From Oceanibaculum nanhaiense (GTDB lineage Bacteria; Pseudomonadota; Alphaproteobacteria; Oceanibaculales; Oceanibaculaceae), in assembly GCF_002148795.1 (NCBI RefSeq), contig NZ_MPOB01000005.1, forward strand, positions 124,001 to 188,000: a stretch of DNA of 64,000 bases, read 5' to 3'. Positions 47,031 through 55,400 of this stretch are shown one piece after another (the stretch's first letter is position 1; the number at the start of each line of letters is the position of its first letter). Below the pieces are notes generated by a model, which saw only the letters and a list, made by a program, of their open reading frames with translations, was not told the origin of the DNA and searched no databases. The position numbers and the translations under genes are program-made.

Positions 47031-48341
47031 ATGGCACAGGGGCGGCTACAGGGGGGGCAGATTATCGAACCGCCCACCGGTCGCGTGCTGTCGCTGGATG
47101 GCGATGCCGGCCCGGCACAGCCAAGGGCGGAAAGTAACCAGACAATTCTGCTGCTGGCGCTGCTGGTCGCCCTGCCGATGTTCGGGCAGAGCTTCCACTA
47201 CATGATCGACCTGCCGCCGCTGTATTTGCTGTCCAAGGGCTGGCCGGTCCTGACCGCGCCGCTGGCGCTCTTCGCCCTGGTCCGTCTGTCGCTTCCCCTG
47301 CAGGTGCTCTACGGGGTTCTCCTGGCCTATGTGCTGGGGCTGACGCCGCTGATGTCGATGATCTATTTCGGCACCGGCCTTGTCGATGCCCTGGCCACCA
47401 CGGCCAAGAGCTTGCCTTTTCTGTATTATTTCGCGGCGCTCGGGTTGCTTCTGCTGCTCCGCCCGCGGCCGGAGACGGTGGTCCGGGCGGTGTTGTGGCT
47501 GGGGGCTGCGACCTTCATCCTGATGGCATTGCTGTGGGTGGTAATTCCGGCCGATTTCTACAAAACCGATCCGGCGGAATCGAAGCTGTTCCTGTTCGAG
47601 GCCGAACGCGGCTACCGGATTTTCATGCCGATGTTCTTCGGCACCATCTTTCTGTTCTACCTGACGCGCCGTGCCTTCGCCCGGCAGGAGATCGCAACCA
47701 TCCTGCTGCTGCTTGTCTGCTTCGCGCTGATGGTGCTGATCTACAAGCAGCGCACGGTCATCCTGGCGGTGCTGCTGACCGTCGGCCTGATTGCCCTTGC
47801 CGCCAGTTCCGGCTGGCGTCGCGGGCTGCTGCTGCTGTTCGGTACGGCGGGCGGGCTGGTGGCGGCAGGGCTGATCTACGCGCATTTCCTGGAGCGCATC
47901 GAAGCGGCGCTGGGGGCGTCGCTGACCATCCGGCAGCTGTCGATCACCATCGCCACCGATTATGTGCTCAGCAATCCGCTGGTCATGTGGTTCGGCGCCG
48001 GTTCGGTGACCCGGATCAGCGACAACAATCTGCAGACGATCCTCGGCAACGCCCATTTCTATCTGGCGGATATCGGCTGGCTCGGCATCATCTTCGAATA
48101 TGGCCTGGTCGGCGCCAGCCTGATCCTTGCCGTCTATGTCGCCTCATTGCGCTGTATCCGGCGGATCGGGGCGGGCACGCATTATTCCATGATGACGGCG
48201 GCGCTGGGCGACCATATCGTCCTGATGCTGATCACATCGCTGGTCTATTCCCTGGTGTTCACACCGGGCGAGATGGCGACGGCGCTGGCACTGGCCACCT
48301 ATCTGGGGCTGCACAGCGATACATCGGTTCCCCGGCCTTAG
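47031..48341 (+). CDS. Wzy-like polysaccharide polymerase/O-antigen ligase family membrane protein
   Basis: 436 residues with about ten hydrophobic helices and a larger periplasmic loop (about residues 280-340) before the last helices, as in the O-antigen ligase/polymerase superfamily. The segment [46 protein letters not shown] matches the Wzy_C-type pattern (short G-G and H-x-x-Y/D-x-G motifs). It should polymerise repeat units in the periplasm. Starts 6 bases after the glycosyltransferase stop and is the last EPS gene. An N-terminal ~35-residue polar extension precedes the first helix. Confidence 0.83.
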
Positions 48342-48367
48342 CCGGCTTGGGTTCCCCGCCCTTAGCC
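48326..48367. repeat. 18-bp direct repeat across the end of the Wzy-like gene
   Basis: GGTTCCCCGGCCTTAGCC (48326-48343) recurs with one mismatch at 48350-48367, so the stop codon region is duplicated. The remaining gap to ettA is C-rich and otherwise featureless. Confidence 0.55.
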
Positions 48368-48505
48368 CCGCTTCCCGCCCGCGTCACCAGCCTTCGCCCA
48401 CCCCCGCATTGCGTCCACCCCCCGCTATCGGCTACAAAGCACCGCATCCGGTGGCCGGTTGGGCTGCCCCACGATCTTTCCCAATTAGCGCGAATGAGGA
48501 GCGGC

Positions 48506-50188
<1,683 letters not shown>

Positions 50189-50280: not shown

Positions 50281-50793
50281 TCAGGCCGCCTGATAGCGTG
50301 CTGCAGCCGGGCGCTCGCGGGCTGCCATGACCTGGCTCAGTTCGGCGCGGGCGCGCGACACGCGGCTCTTGATCGTGCCAACGGCGCAGTCGCAGATTTC
50401 GGCCGCGTCCTCGTAGCTGAAGCCGCTGGCGCCAACCAGGATCAGCACCTCGCGCTGGTCGGCCGACAGCGTCTGGAAGGCGCGGTCGAAATCGCGCACA
50501 TGCAGTTTCACCTCCTGGGTCGCCGGGGTGGACTGGTTGAGCGCGCGGTCGTCGATGGGTTCCATCTCGAAGCGGCGCTGGCGCAGCTGATCGTAGAAGA
50601 TGTTGCGCAGGATGGTGAACATCCAGGCTTTGAAGTTGGTGCCCATCTGGAACTTGTCCTGCGCCTTCAGCGCACGCACCACAGCGTCCTGCGTCAGATC
50701 CTTGGCGCGATCCTCATTGCGGCACAGCATGCGGGCGAAAGCCTGCAGGTGGGGAATGACGTCAACCAACTCATCCTGAAACGGGCGTGGCAT
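50281..50793 (-). CDS. ecfG: General stress response ECF sigma factor EcfG
   Basis: 170 residues from the ATG at MPRPFQDELVDVIPHLQ, with GGAGG 7 bases upstream; an ATG 17 codons earlier lacks a binding site. Sigma region 2 (ARMLCRNEDRAKDLTQDAVVRAL, GTNFKAWMFTILRNIFYDQLR) and region 4 (LILVGASGFSYEDAAEICDCAVGTIKSRVSRARAEL) match the ECF15/EcfG class, which directs the alphaproteobacterial general stress regulon from GGAAC/CGTT promoters. The adjoining nepR and PhyR-like genes and the EcfG-type promoters support the call. No membrane anti-sigma factor is present, as expected for this class. Confidence 0.93.
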   Translation of the reverse strand: MPRPFQDELVDVIPHLQAFARMLCRNEDRAKDLTQDAVVRALKAQDKFQMGTNFKAWMFTILRNIFYDQLRQRRFEMEPIDDRALNQSTPATQEVKLHVRDFDRAFQTLSADQREVLILVGASGFSYEDAAEICDCAVGTIKSRVSRARAELSQVMAARERPAAARYQAA

Positions 50794-50949
50794 TTTTCTG
50801 CCTCCGTTATTTATTAGACCGAATAGACGATCGGATTCGGCCATCCGCTATTGGCTACAATAAGGAACAATAAAGGCTGTTTCATGGCGCGGTGCCCAGA
50901 TACGGTCACAAACATAAATAAATATAATTTTAATGTTTTTGTCTTGGTT

Positions 50950-51192
50950 TCAGGGTTTCTTGGTCTTGTTGTTTATTATGTCAATTATATCCTGCGGAAT
51001 TGGCTCGCTCAGAATATCCGCATACATTTCCTGCAAATAGTCTTCGATCCAGTGCCCGAAATACGGGTTATCGCCGGGCTCGTCGTGCCTCCCGCCCGCC
51101 ATGGCCTTGGCGGCAGTGCTTTTGCGCCGTGTTGCGCCGGGTTCTGGCCGGCTGTACACGAGTTTCAGAAAGGGGGCTTGATGTGTCGTCAT
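50950..51192 (-). CDS. nepR: NepR family anti-sigma factor
   Basis: 80 residues. The C-terminal half holds the NepR signature: IEDYLQEMYADILSEPIPQDIIDIINN with EPIP at residues 63-66, two short helices that clamp the EcfG sigma. The N-terminal 40 residues are basic, low complexity and probably disordered, as in other NepR proteins. NepR sequesters EcfG until phosphorylated PhyR displaces it. An internal Met at residue 31 is a possible alternative start. It lies 156 bases ahead of ecfG on the same strand and behind an EcfG-type promoter. Confidence 0.88.
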   Translation of the reverse strand: MTTHQAPFLKLVYSRPEPGATRRKSTAAKAMAGGRHDEPGDNPYFGHWIEDYLQEMYADILSEPIPQDIIDIINNKTKKP

Positions 51193-51262: not shown

Positions 51263-51287
51263 AACGGAAGAAGCGCGCTCATGTTCC
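51263..51287 (-). promoter_or_regulatory. EcfG-type promoter of nepR-ecfG
   Basis: On the minus strand GGAAC (51287-51283) and CGTT (51266-51263) are separated by 16 bp, an exact match to the EcfG consensus. Transcription would start near 51256, leaving a leader of about 65 bases before nepR: positive autoregulation of the stress sigma factor. Confidence 0.8.
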
Positions 51288-51469: not shown

Positions 51470-52024
51470 ATGCATGCCCCCAAGACAGATTTGTCCGAGG
51501 TTCTGCCCTATCTGCGCCGCTATGCCCATGCACTGGCCGGTGGCCGTTCCAAGGGCGACGCCTATCTGAAGCTATGTCTGGAAACCTATCTTCACGAGCC
51601 GCACCGGCTGCGTGCCGGGCGCAGCATCAAGCCTCAGCTTTTCGCCCTGTTCCACGATGTCTGGTCGGTGGTGGCGCTGACCATGCCGCAACTCGACGAA
51701 GCGGGGGACGATGATGATCTGGACGATCCCTTGGCCGGCGGTCTGCAATGCCTGCCCGTGCTGAAGCGGCAGGTGTTTCTGCTGGGGCGTCTGGAAGGCT
51801 TCACGGCGGCGGAGATCGCCGCGATCCTGGGGATCGACGAGGCCGATGCCCGCCGCCGCCTCGACGAGGCGACCACGCTGCTGCGCCGGCGCATGATCGA
51901 TCGCCACCTGCTGCAGGGCGGTTCCGTTCGGTCAGAGGAAGATGATGATGCGTTTGACGTGCCGTTGCAGGCACCATCCTTTGTCGGCCGCCGGGTCGAG
52001 CGCACGCCGAGCCACCAAAGGTAA
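51470..52024 (+). CDS. PhyR-type sigma-like domain protein without receiver domain
   Basis: 184 residues, ATG preceded by GAGGAG. Residues about 10-145 match the sigma-like output half of PhyR: LPYLRRYAHALAGGRSKGDAYLK (sigma-2-like, with the GDAY motif), FALFHDVWSV, an acidic loop, and LPVLKRQVFLLGRLEGFTAAEIAAILGIDEADARRRLDEA (sigma-4-like). Canonical PhyR is about 265 residues with a C-terminal REC domain whose phosphorylation exposes this NepR-binding surface. Here a 40-residue acidic-then-basic tail follows and the gene stops; no receiver remnant is found downstream in any frame. Divergent from nepR-ecfG, as phyR usually is. It would bind NepR without needing phosphorylation, or it may be degenerate. 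Confidence 0.83.
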   Translation: MHAPKTDLSEVLPYLRRYAHALAGGRSKGDAYLKLCLETYLHEPHRLRAGRSIKPQLFALFHDVWSVVALTMPQLDEAGDDDDLDDPLAGGLQCLPVLKRQVFLLGRLEGFTAAEIAAILGIDEADARRRLDEATTLLRRRMIDRHLLQGGSVRSEEDDDAFDVPLQAPSFVGRRVERTPSHQR

Positions 52025-52050
52025 CGGATCAAAAGTAACAGGCCAGAAAG

Positions 52051-52073
52051 CACCGGAAAGCCCCGTTCCGGTG
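52051..52073 (+). terminator. Hairpin after the PhyR-like gene
   Basis: An 8-bp stem CACCGGAA/TTCCGGTG with a 7-base loop, 26 bases after the stop codon. It lacks a T tract, so termination would be weak or Rho-aided. Confidence 0.4.
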
Positions 52074-52127
52074 GTTACTCACGCGCCTTTCGCGGTATCC
52101 TGAGAGTGATTTTTTGAAGACGATTCG

Positions 52128-52153
52128 GGAACGCGGGGATTGTACCCGCCGTT
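52128..52153 (+). promoter_or_regulatory. EcfG-type promoter of the small PLDc_N membrane protein
   Basis: GGAAC (52128-52132) and CGTT (52150-52153) with a 17-bp spacer, matching the EcfG consensus. A start near 52160 gives a leader of about 59 bases before the 62-residue gene. Confidence 0.78.
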
Positions 52154-52218
52154 AGGACAACAGGATACCGTGTCCGGAACCTGCAATGGGGCCGGCAACA
52201 ATCGAAAGGACTAAGTTG

Positions 52219-52407
52219 ATGGGTATTGAGGTCGGCGGCCTTCTGGGCCTGCTTTTGCTGATCGCCAACATCTGGGCAATCGTGAATGTCGTTGGCAGCG
52301 GCGCGTCCACCGGCGGCAAGGTGCTGTGGATTCTGTTCATCCTGCTGATGCCGCTGCTGGGCTTCATTGTCTGGCTCATCCTGGGGCCGCGCAGCGTGCG
52401 GGCTTAA
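52219..52407 (+). CDS. Small PLDc_N-domain membrane protein
   Basis: 62 residues from the ATG at MGIEVGGLLG, with AAAGGA about 9 bases upstream. Two transmembrane helices (about residues 5-25 and 35-55) and the pattern WILFILLMPLLGFIVWLILGPR identify the phospholipase D-nuclease N-terminal (PLDc_N) family, a membrane hairpin also found in cardiolipin synthases but here standing alone. An EcfG-type promoter lies just upstream, so it should be a member of the general stress regulon, probably at the envelope. Its end meets tamB convergently with only 3 bases between. Confidence 0.85.
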   Translation: MGIEVGGLLGLLLLIANIWAIVNVVGSGASTGGKVLWILFILLMPLLGFIVWLILGPRSVRA

Positions 52408-52410
52408 GCC

Positions 52411-55400
52411 TCAGTAGCGCTTCTCGTAGATCAACCCGATATCGCCGGCTGAGGCAGCGCCCAGCCGGCTTTCTATTTTCAGGTTCGGCAGCACCCGATA
52501 TTCCAGCAGCAGGGCGGTGCTCTCGGCGCCGAATCCCTGGCTGACCCCGACGAACAGATCCTCCGAAAGGTAGCGCCCGGCGCGAACAGAAGCTCCGCCG
52601 TCATCTCCGCCACCGACTTCCAGCGTGTCCAGCCCCAGCGACTGGCGCAGATCATCGACCATGCCGACGCTGCTGACGGTGCCCGTCAGCTCCAGCGCGG
52701 TCTGGGCCAGCCGCGCCGCCTGCACCGCGTTCAGTCTGGCAACGTCGCTGCCGAACAGGATACGCGACAGGATTTCGTCGCGCGGCAGCGGCGGGGAGGA
52801 GGACAGGGTTATGTCCGGCCGGCGCACCGGGCCGCTCAGCGCGATCTGGGCCTGGATGTCGCCGACATCGGCGACCGCCAGGATATCGAGGCCAATTTCC
52901 AGATCGCCATATGGATCCGGCAGCAAGTCGATGGTGCCGCGGTCCAGCACGAAGCGCCGGCCGGCGAAGTCGAACTGGCCGCGCACCACGGAGATATCGC
53001 CGGAAATTTCCGGCGTCGCCGCCGTGCCGGCGATGTCCAGCCTGCCGCTGAATTCCGATTCCAGCCCGCGGCCGCGCACGAAGACCTGCCCCGGTATCTG
53101 AATGGTGATATCGAGGCGCACGAGATCAGGGCCGAATCCGTCCTCCGCTTCATCCTCCTTCTGCCGGGCACGTGCCTGTCTTGCTTCCTCCCGCCGCCTT
53201 TCGGCATCGACATTGGTGCGGGCATCGCGGTTGACCTCGCGAACCTCCAGCATGGTGACGGAGGGCGGCAGGCGATTGGGGATGCGGATGTCGGCCTCAT
53301 CCACCGTGATGCGGCCGGTCAGCAGCAATGCCTGCGCCTGGTTTTCCAGCACCAGCGTGCCGCTGGCATAGGCGGTGCCTTCCTCGCGGTTCAGGATGCG
53401 CAGCCGGTTCTGCCGCAGCCGGATATCGATTTGCGGCAGGCCCTTGCCATCGAAACGGACGCGGCCCTCGCCGGTCAGCGTGCCGCCGGCACCGTCCTGC
53501 GCGCTGAGGTCGTGCAGGGTGAGGCTGTCGCCCTCGCCATCGATACGGAAGGCGATGTTCTGCAGCGTGGCGCCGGTCATGTCGTTCATATAGCGGCCTT
53601 CGGCCAGTTCCGCCGTGCCGCTGAGTTGCGGGTTGCGCACCGTGCCACCAATATCGAGCCCGGCGGTGAGCCTGCCGTCCAGCCGGTCCTCGCCCAGCGC
53701 AAGGGCCAGCAGGGTGATCTTGCTGAGATTGGCCTGCGCCGTTAGCTTGCCGCTGAGCGGGCCATCGGGGGGCAGAACGGCTTCTCCGGTCAGCAGGTCG
53801 AGGCGTACCGGCAGGCTGGCCTGCGCCTCGACCCGCGCGCCTTCCATCCTGTCCAGCGTCAGGCTGGCGTTGAGCTGTCCCCGCTCCAGCCGCCCTTCCA
53901 GCGTGGCGGAGGCGGGCGGCAGGTCGGGCGCTGTGGGATCGTCCAACTCGATGCCGGAAAGACGCAGGCGGAAATCCCCGGTGGGATTGTCGGGGCGTCC
54001 CTGCAGGGTCACTTCCAGCGCGGCATCGCCTTTCAGCGCCGGCCCCAGCTCCAGCCTCTCCGCCAGAGACAGCGGCAGGCCGGTCAGCGACATTCTGGCC
54101 TCCACCGCGCTGTCCGTCAGCCGCGCCGCGCCGGCCAGCCGTGCCCCCTGATCGATGGCGAGGTCGAGCCCCTCGATTTCTTTCAGCTGCGGTCCGTAGC
54201 GCAGCGTCACAGGCTGCCGCAATGCCAGCGCCAGCTTGTGGACATCGCCGTCGAGCCTGTCGAGCCGCAGGGTGATCGTCTCCGCCACCGCGATGGCGCC
54301 GGTGCTTTCCAGCGACAGATCAGGGCCGCTCGCCGCGAGGGAGAAATCGCCACCTTTAGGGTCAAGATCGGCGTCAATGGCCAGATTATCCAGCCGCTGC
54401 CCCCCCGCTTCGATGCCCTCGGCGCGCAGCACCACAGGCCCGTTCGGCGTGCCCTTTACGTCGGCCAGCTGGGCTTCCAGCCGCAGCGCGTCGATGCTGC
54501 CGATATTGTCGGCGGCAAGACCGCTGCCTTCCAGCACCAGCCCGGCATGCTGCCGGCCCGACCGGTCTGCCAGCTCCACTGCCAGCGCGATGCTGCCGGA
54601 GGGATTCAGCTGCTTCTGCCCCGCCAGTGCGGCCAGGGTCGCGAGATCGTCGCTGCTTGCCTTCAGCCGGCCGGCGGCAAGCTGCCGTTCCATGTCGATG
54701 GCGAGATCGCCTTGCAGCGCCAGTGCCTTGCTGTCGAGCGCCAGCCCGTCCAGCCGCAACCGGTTCGCCGCGAACGAGAAAGCCGTCGTTCCGGTCGCCG
54801 CCACCCCGCGCGGGCTGGCCGTAAGGCGCAGCCGGCCTTCGGCAACAGGCGCGCCGGTATCGGCATCCTGCGCCAGCCGGTCGAGGGAGAGGGCTGCGGT
54901 GACAGTCCCCAGTGTCTCGTCTTCCAGCCGGGCATTGCGCCAGTCCAGATTGGCTTCCCCCGTCATTCCGGCGGGCCAGCTGCCGGACAGGGTGACGAAG
55001 GCGCTGGCCGCGCCGGCCATGCGGATGCCGGCCAGTGTGCCCGCCTCCGTCATATCAGGCAGATCAAGGGCGAGGCTGGCCGCAATGGTCTGGAAACCCT
55101 CCGACAGGGTGGCGTTGCCATCCACTGTCAGGCCTTCCCCGGCAAGCCCGATATGGTCGAGTTGCAGCCGCCCTTCCTGCTGGCGGATGCGGCCGGCGGC
55201 GGTCAGTTCGCTGGTACCGCCCAGCAGCGGCAAGGGGGTGCCGTCCAGTGCCGCACCGGCGATGCTGGCCATGATGTCGAAGCCGGCATCGTCGGGATGG
55301 CCGCTGACAGCAGCGTCGAGCCGCAGCATCCCGGCGAGATCGATCCCGGCGAGCGGGGCATAGCGTTCCAGCGGGCCCGTCGCTGTGGCTGTCAGGTCGA

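Follow-up and report, generated by a model that had tools for sequence, protein, structure and literature searches.

In the general stress response of Alphaproteobacteria such as Caulobacter, Sphingomonas, Bartonella and Methylobacterium, PhyR is at once response regulator and anti-anti-sigma factor, and phosphorylation of PhyR is considered to be the input that defines this response. In the 64,000-nucleotide stretch of Oceanibaculum nanhaiense DNA analysed here (contig NZ_MPOB01000005.1; the window), a phyR homologue was found that encodes the sigma-like (SL) half of PhyR without the receiver (REC) domain. This gene, termed phyR-SL, lies divergent from nepR and ecfG, as had been noted in the original prediction, and the same arrangement was found in four genomes. 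These sample the GTDB order as four species of one genus: the present genome (G000, 98.8% complete), its sister (G003, 98% complete) and two congeners (G001 and G002).

Architecture of phyR-SL

The domain content of phyR-SL was assigned with Pfam, NCBIfam and PDB matches (Table 1). The NCBIfam model of full-length PhyR is covered at positions 4–137 of 258 only, and the top PDB matches are PhyR structures, aligned through their SL halves. The earlier description of an SL-only gene of 184 residues, with a GDAY motif and a tail of about 40 residues, was thus confirmed, the tail extending 39–40 residues past the SL part. Residues that are near-invariant in canonical SL domains are retained (P13, L15, R16, R17, Y18, G24, G29, D30, L37, E38, F61, W65, R100, L104, L105, E109, F111 and A134). 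When the region 3′ of the gene (51900–52420) was searched in all frames by tblastn with 39 REC domains, only chance matches were obtained (best E 0.028); a control locus returned its REC at 5e-87. A REC remnant or frameshift was rejected on these grounds, and the claim that no REC follows in any frame holds. Assignment of phyR-SL to the ECF sigma factors was also rejected: Pfam Sigma70_r2, the model of the region by which a sigma factor binds core RNA polymerase and the −10 element, matches the neighbouring EcfG at 1.7e-14 but gave no match, and in the tree phyR-SL groups with PhyRs, away from the ECF outgroups. The gene is therefore PhyR-derived yet does not encode a PhyR response regulator, because the C-terminal REC with its phosphoacceptor Asp was looked for and is absent. 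No Rfam match to an RNA element was found at the locus. Much the same architecture, an SL domain lacking REC, is seen in the solved structures of the laboratory constructs 3t0y_A (142 residues) and 2lfw_A (157 residues), which are complexes with NepR; these constructs are engineered, whereas phyR-SL occurs in nature, is conserved and has a tail.

Several parts of the SL protein differ from canonical PhyR. The linker between the sigma2-like and sigma4-like parts has a net charge of −6 to −8 in the REC-less proteins, compared with a canonical mean of −1.9; in canonical PhyR its place is taken by a helix that has been likened to a doorstop for NepR (PMC12148442). The charge of the last helix, which averages −3.9 in canonical proteins (range −8 to −1), is +1 in each of the four REC-less proteins, so that the helix is basic; residue L130 has become R or G in this group, and changes are also seen close to where REC was formerly joined. 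An acidic run is present in the tail of all four proteins, and a 12-residue core, DAFDVPLQAPSF, is identical in G000 and G003. The charge shift of the last helix and the acidic tail indicate that these two parts, and with them the linker, changed together. The coupled change of helix and tail, like the conservation of the tail, would suit a tail that replaces REC as the controlling element, folding onto the SL part (at the groove for NepR or at the last helix, which is basic) and being released or degraded under stress through proteolysis or a ligand. The tails of the two subclades are, however, alike in composition more than in sequence, structure prediction gives coil for the tail, at low confidence, and docking is seen in no structure; control of this kind is considered possible but unlikely. 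Each of the six PhyR-type proteins of the genus, whether REC-less or full-length, has arginine 107, which none of the canonical PhyRs displayed shares, and the NepRs of the genus carry Q or H at a position that is R in canonical NepRs. The two positions may form a compensating interface pair, or charge swap, which is suggestive only.

Table 1. Features of the phyR-SL locus, with positions in the window
Feature	Position	Strand	Remarks
phyR-SL (REC-less phyR homologue)	51470..52024	+	184-residue open reading frame; orthologues in G001, G002 and G003
sigma2-like part, residues 10–62	51497..51655	+	PhyR_sigma2, 1e-16, over cut-off; GDAY = residues 29–32
sigma2–sigma4 linker, residues 66–92	51665..51745	+	SVVALT[LM]P in 4/4 REC-less proteins
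sigma4-like part, residues 94–135	51749..51874	+	PhyR_sigma-like, 2.9e-9, over cut-off
C-terminal tail replacing REC, residues 146–184	51905..52021	+	Acidic run, then DAFDVPLQAPSF
nepR, anti-sigma factor	50950..51192	-	80 residues, core EMYADILSEPIP; best NepR match in genome
ecfG, ECF sigma factor	50281..50844	-	Sigma70_r2 and r4, NCBIfam ECF families; 93% identical to G003
EcfG-type promoter of nepR-ecfG	51263..51287	-	GGAAC-N16-CGTT, perfect; in 4/4 species
EcfG-type promoter of PLDc_N gene	52128..52153	+	GGAAC-N17-CGTT, perfect; in 4/4 species
Small PLDc_N membrane protein	52219..52407	+	PLDc_N, 3.8e-11; syntenic in 4/4 species

Distribution of phyR-SL and of the two-component input

The REC-less gene occupies the ecfG–nepR locus in each of the four genomes that sample the order, with the same surrounding gene order in G001, G002 and G003 as in G000, and its four products form one clade nested among full-length canonical PhyRs (support 100/99). 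For G000 and G003, the nonsynonymous (dN) and synonymous (dS) substitution rates were 0.168 and 0.686 in the SL part (dN/dS about 0.25) and 0.280 and 1.33 in the tail (dN/dS about 0.21), and phyR-SL is under purifying selection. An error of sequencing or assembly as the cause of the missing REC is excluded, because each of the four genomes has the gene without REC; of the objections that the original prediction had named against itself, this one falls together with membership of another sigma family. That phyR-SL could be a decaying relic or an artefact, as the loss of a domain universal elsewhere might suggest, is scarcely credible, given that the gene recurs in synteny in four independent genomes, that its products form a single clade and that dN/dS is about 0.25.

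Outside these four, no REC-less match above 80 bits was found among 385 genomes of the class; one short match, in G048, is cut by a contig end, and of those scoring around 69 bits a part was checked. A short match in G070 was rejected as a REC-less PhyR, being an ECF sigma factor, and plasmid matches are, going by their annotation, mostly response regulators. The full text of open papers, subscription papers not being searchable, yielded no natural PhyR without a receiver. The PhyR family itself is known; a natural, conserved REC-less derivative of it appears to be new.

The remainder of each genome was then considered. Searches with the PhyR model found no full-length PhyR in G000 or G003, and neither of these two genomes encodes an HWE_HK or HisKA_2 kinase, members of the family that coordinates the alphaproteobacterial general stress response (PMC12148442). 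It is kinases of these types that are known to phosphorylate PhyR. G001 and G002 possess HWE_HK and HisKA_2 kinases, together with a full-length PhyR (268-residue frames) beside the REC-less gene. Across the class, at least one HWE/HisKA_2 kinase was present in 64 of 65 genomes with full-length PhyR, compared with 23 of 320 without (counts not corrected for phylogeny); the sole exception among the 65, G343, is a fragmented assembly. The two-component input of the known kind thus appears to be gone from G000 and G003. Another reading is that phyR-SL is acted on in trans, by a kinase outside the HWE family or by a REC protein encoded separately, and G000 does encode other REC proteins. No PhyR-type REC was found in G000 or G003, however: the best standalone REC of G000 scores just 46 bits, is DivK-like, adjoins a PleD-like gene and is common to all four species, whereas lone PhyR-like RECs in other genomes of the class reach about 104 bits. 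The changed SL positions near the former REC junction also argue against action in trans, which we regard as very improbable.

In its second proposal, that phyR-SL tunes a full PhyR encoded elsewhere, the original prediction fails for G000, because this genome has no full-length PhyR. In G001 and G002, where both proteins are present, phyR-SL might tune the full-length one. The full-length copies are 32–36% identical to the REC-less ones and lie near HisKA_2 kinases, away from nepR-ecfG. They are very divergent (L102:7977-8780 in G002 and L100:9016-9816 in G001), with long branches, and are without the LLTGE stretch that almost every other PhyR has in its REC. Between the full-length phyR of G001 and a second EcfG-like sigma factor sits an open reading frame of 772 residues (L100:6340-8658), which fuses DinB_2, FGE-sulfatase and histidine-specific methyltransferase domains and is EgtB-EgtD-like.

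EcfG-type promoters and neighbouring genes

Perfect GGAAC-N16/17-CGTT sites occur in the window only at the two positions of Table 1, against 0.46 expected. According to a review, both units, phyR and nepR-ecfG, are normally EcfG-driven (PMC8103513). Among canonical phyR genes, 22 of about 33 distinct ones were found to have GGAAC-N16/17-NGTT within 400 bases, the chance of such a site being about 0.0065 per intergenic region by shuffling. Upstream of phyR-SL, no EcfG-type promoter was found in G000, G002 or G003, and the gene of G001 is preceded by GGAAC-N16-GGTT. With EcfG-type promoters at nepR-ecfG in four of four species and at phyR-SL in one of four, the SL antagonist has apparently dropped out of the feedback loop, in which the sigma and anti-sigma factors remain. 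A contig labelled Solirubrobacterales (Actinomycetota; L068), probably alphaproteobacterial and mis-binned, was also seen to carry a full-length PhyR of canonical type preceded by an EcfG-type promoter.

By its promoter, the PLDc_N gene is probably an EcfG target. Past it, on the opposite strand, lie what are presumably TamB-like and TamA-like genes, so named from the appearance of their sequences. The true start of ecfG may be internal, as seen in G003. At 47495-50188, an open reading frame of 897 residues resembles an ABC-F protein of the EttA-like kind that has been lengthened upstream by a spurious extension, its orthologue in G003 having 564 residues. In G002, a second NepR-like match (L114, C6:4838-4903), weak at 17.9 bits, was found near another ECF sigma factor (C6:3528-3968), and the two may form a second sigma/anti-sigma pair.

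Control of the partner switch

For canonical PhyR, the initial model held that REC keeps the SL surface closed until phosphorylation, and later work found that NepR contacts unphosphorylated PhyR (PMC12148442). As phyR-SL has no REC to close the SL surface, it would be competent for NepR at all times. Wherever the protein is present it would then bind NepR and free EcfG, so that EcfG output would follow the SL-to-NepR ratio, and hence the rates at which the SL protein is made and turned over, phosphorylation playing no part. Going by promoter consensus, EcfG would drive itself and its inhibitor NepR and not the SL antagonist, and activation would therefore limit itself unless SL rises. The tail may have a role in stability or in choice of partner.

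On this basis we consider it rather probable that phyR-SL is a functional PhyR descendant cut down to the NepR-binding module, through which the partner switch has been uncoupled from two-component signalling and placed under the control of abundance. The earlier suggestion that activation depends on the abundance of the protein and not on a histidine kinase is strongly, if indirectly, supported, in that G000 lacks full-length PhyR, a PhyR-type REC and HWE/HisKA_2 kinases and in that the conserved SL residues are retained. Four observations weigh against abundance control by a functional descendant. No sigma-70 consensus promoter was found upstream of phyR-SL as a source of changes in abundance. 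Selection acts on the tail, which might be inhibitory in its own right or require a ligand. The single-sequence AlphaFold model of phyR-SL is poor, with a mean confidence (pLDDT) of 53. The NepRs of the genus are divergent, and only one of the four exceeded the Pfam cut-off in the genome search: that of G003, at 26.3 bits, the protein of G000 scoring 8.2e-5 and 22.6 bits against a gathering score of 25.7.

The lack of both an EcfG-type and a sigma-70 consensus promoter upstream of phyR-SL, and of HWE/HisKA_2 kinases and a PhyR-type REC in G000, would fit a plain NepR sink, in which phyR-SL sets a basal, near-constitutive EcfG activity without relaying any stress signal. The EcfG promoters and the entire partner switch are nevertheless kept in four species, which suggests a response that is still regulated, and a plain sink is judged decidedly unlikely.

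Abundance control by a REC-less PhyR can be set beside known systems. Like canonical PhyR, phyR-SL has an SL domain with the conserved residues and GD motif, is divergent from nepR-ecfG and is nested in the PhyR tree; unlike it, phyR-SL has no REC or phosphoacceptor Asp, has its own conserved tail, resides in a genome without HWE/HisKA_2 kinases and mostly has no EcfG promoter. In RT-PhyR' of Rubellimicrobium thermophilum, interaction with NepR is decoupled from phosphorylation, suggesting a phosphorylation-independent function (PMC12148442). Judging from its sequence, phyR-SL would share this mode of interaction; RT-PhyR', however, retains REC and coexists with a kinase-responsive PhyR, whereas in G000 phyR-SL has no REC and such kinases are missing.

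For the order as a whole, the chances seem evenly balanced that this is a lineage uncoupled from two-component signalling, in which a REC-less PhyR, controlled through its synthesis or through a turnover that its conserved tail brings about, is the sole NepR antagonist in two species and stands beside a kinase-driven PhyR in the other two. In G000, where REC and the kinases of the known type are lost, the stress response would have to be turned on in some other way. A lineage that keeps the partner switch without either offers a ready test of whether REC does no more than cover the sigma-like surface, and of how the switch runs on abundance alone; its four species, with both forms of PhyR or the REC-less form only, provide an evolutionary series.
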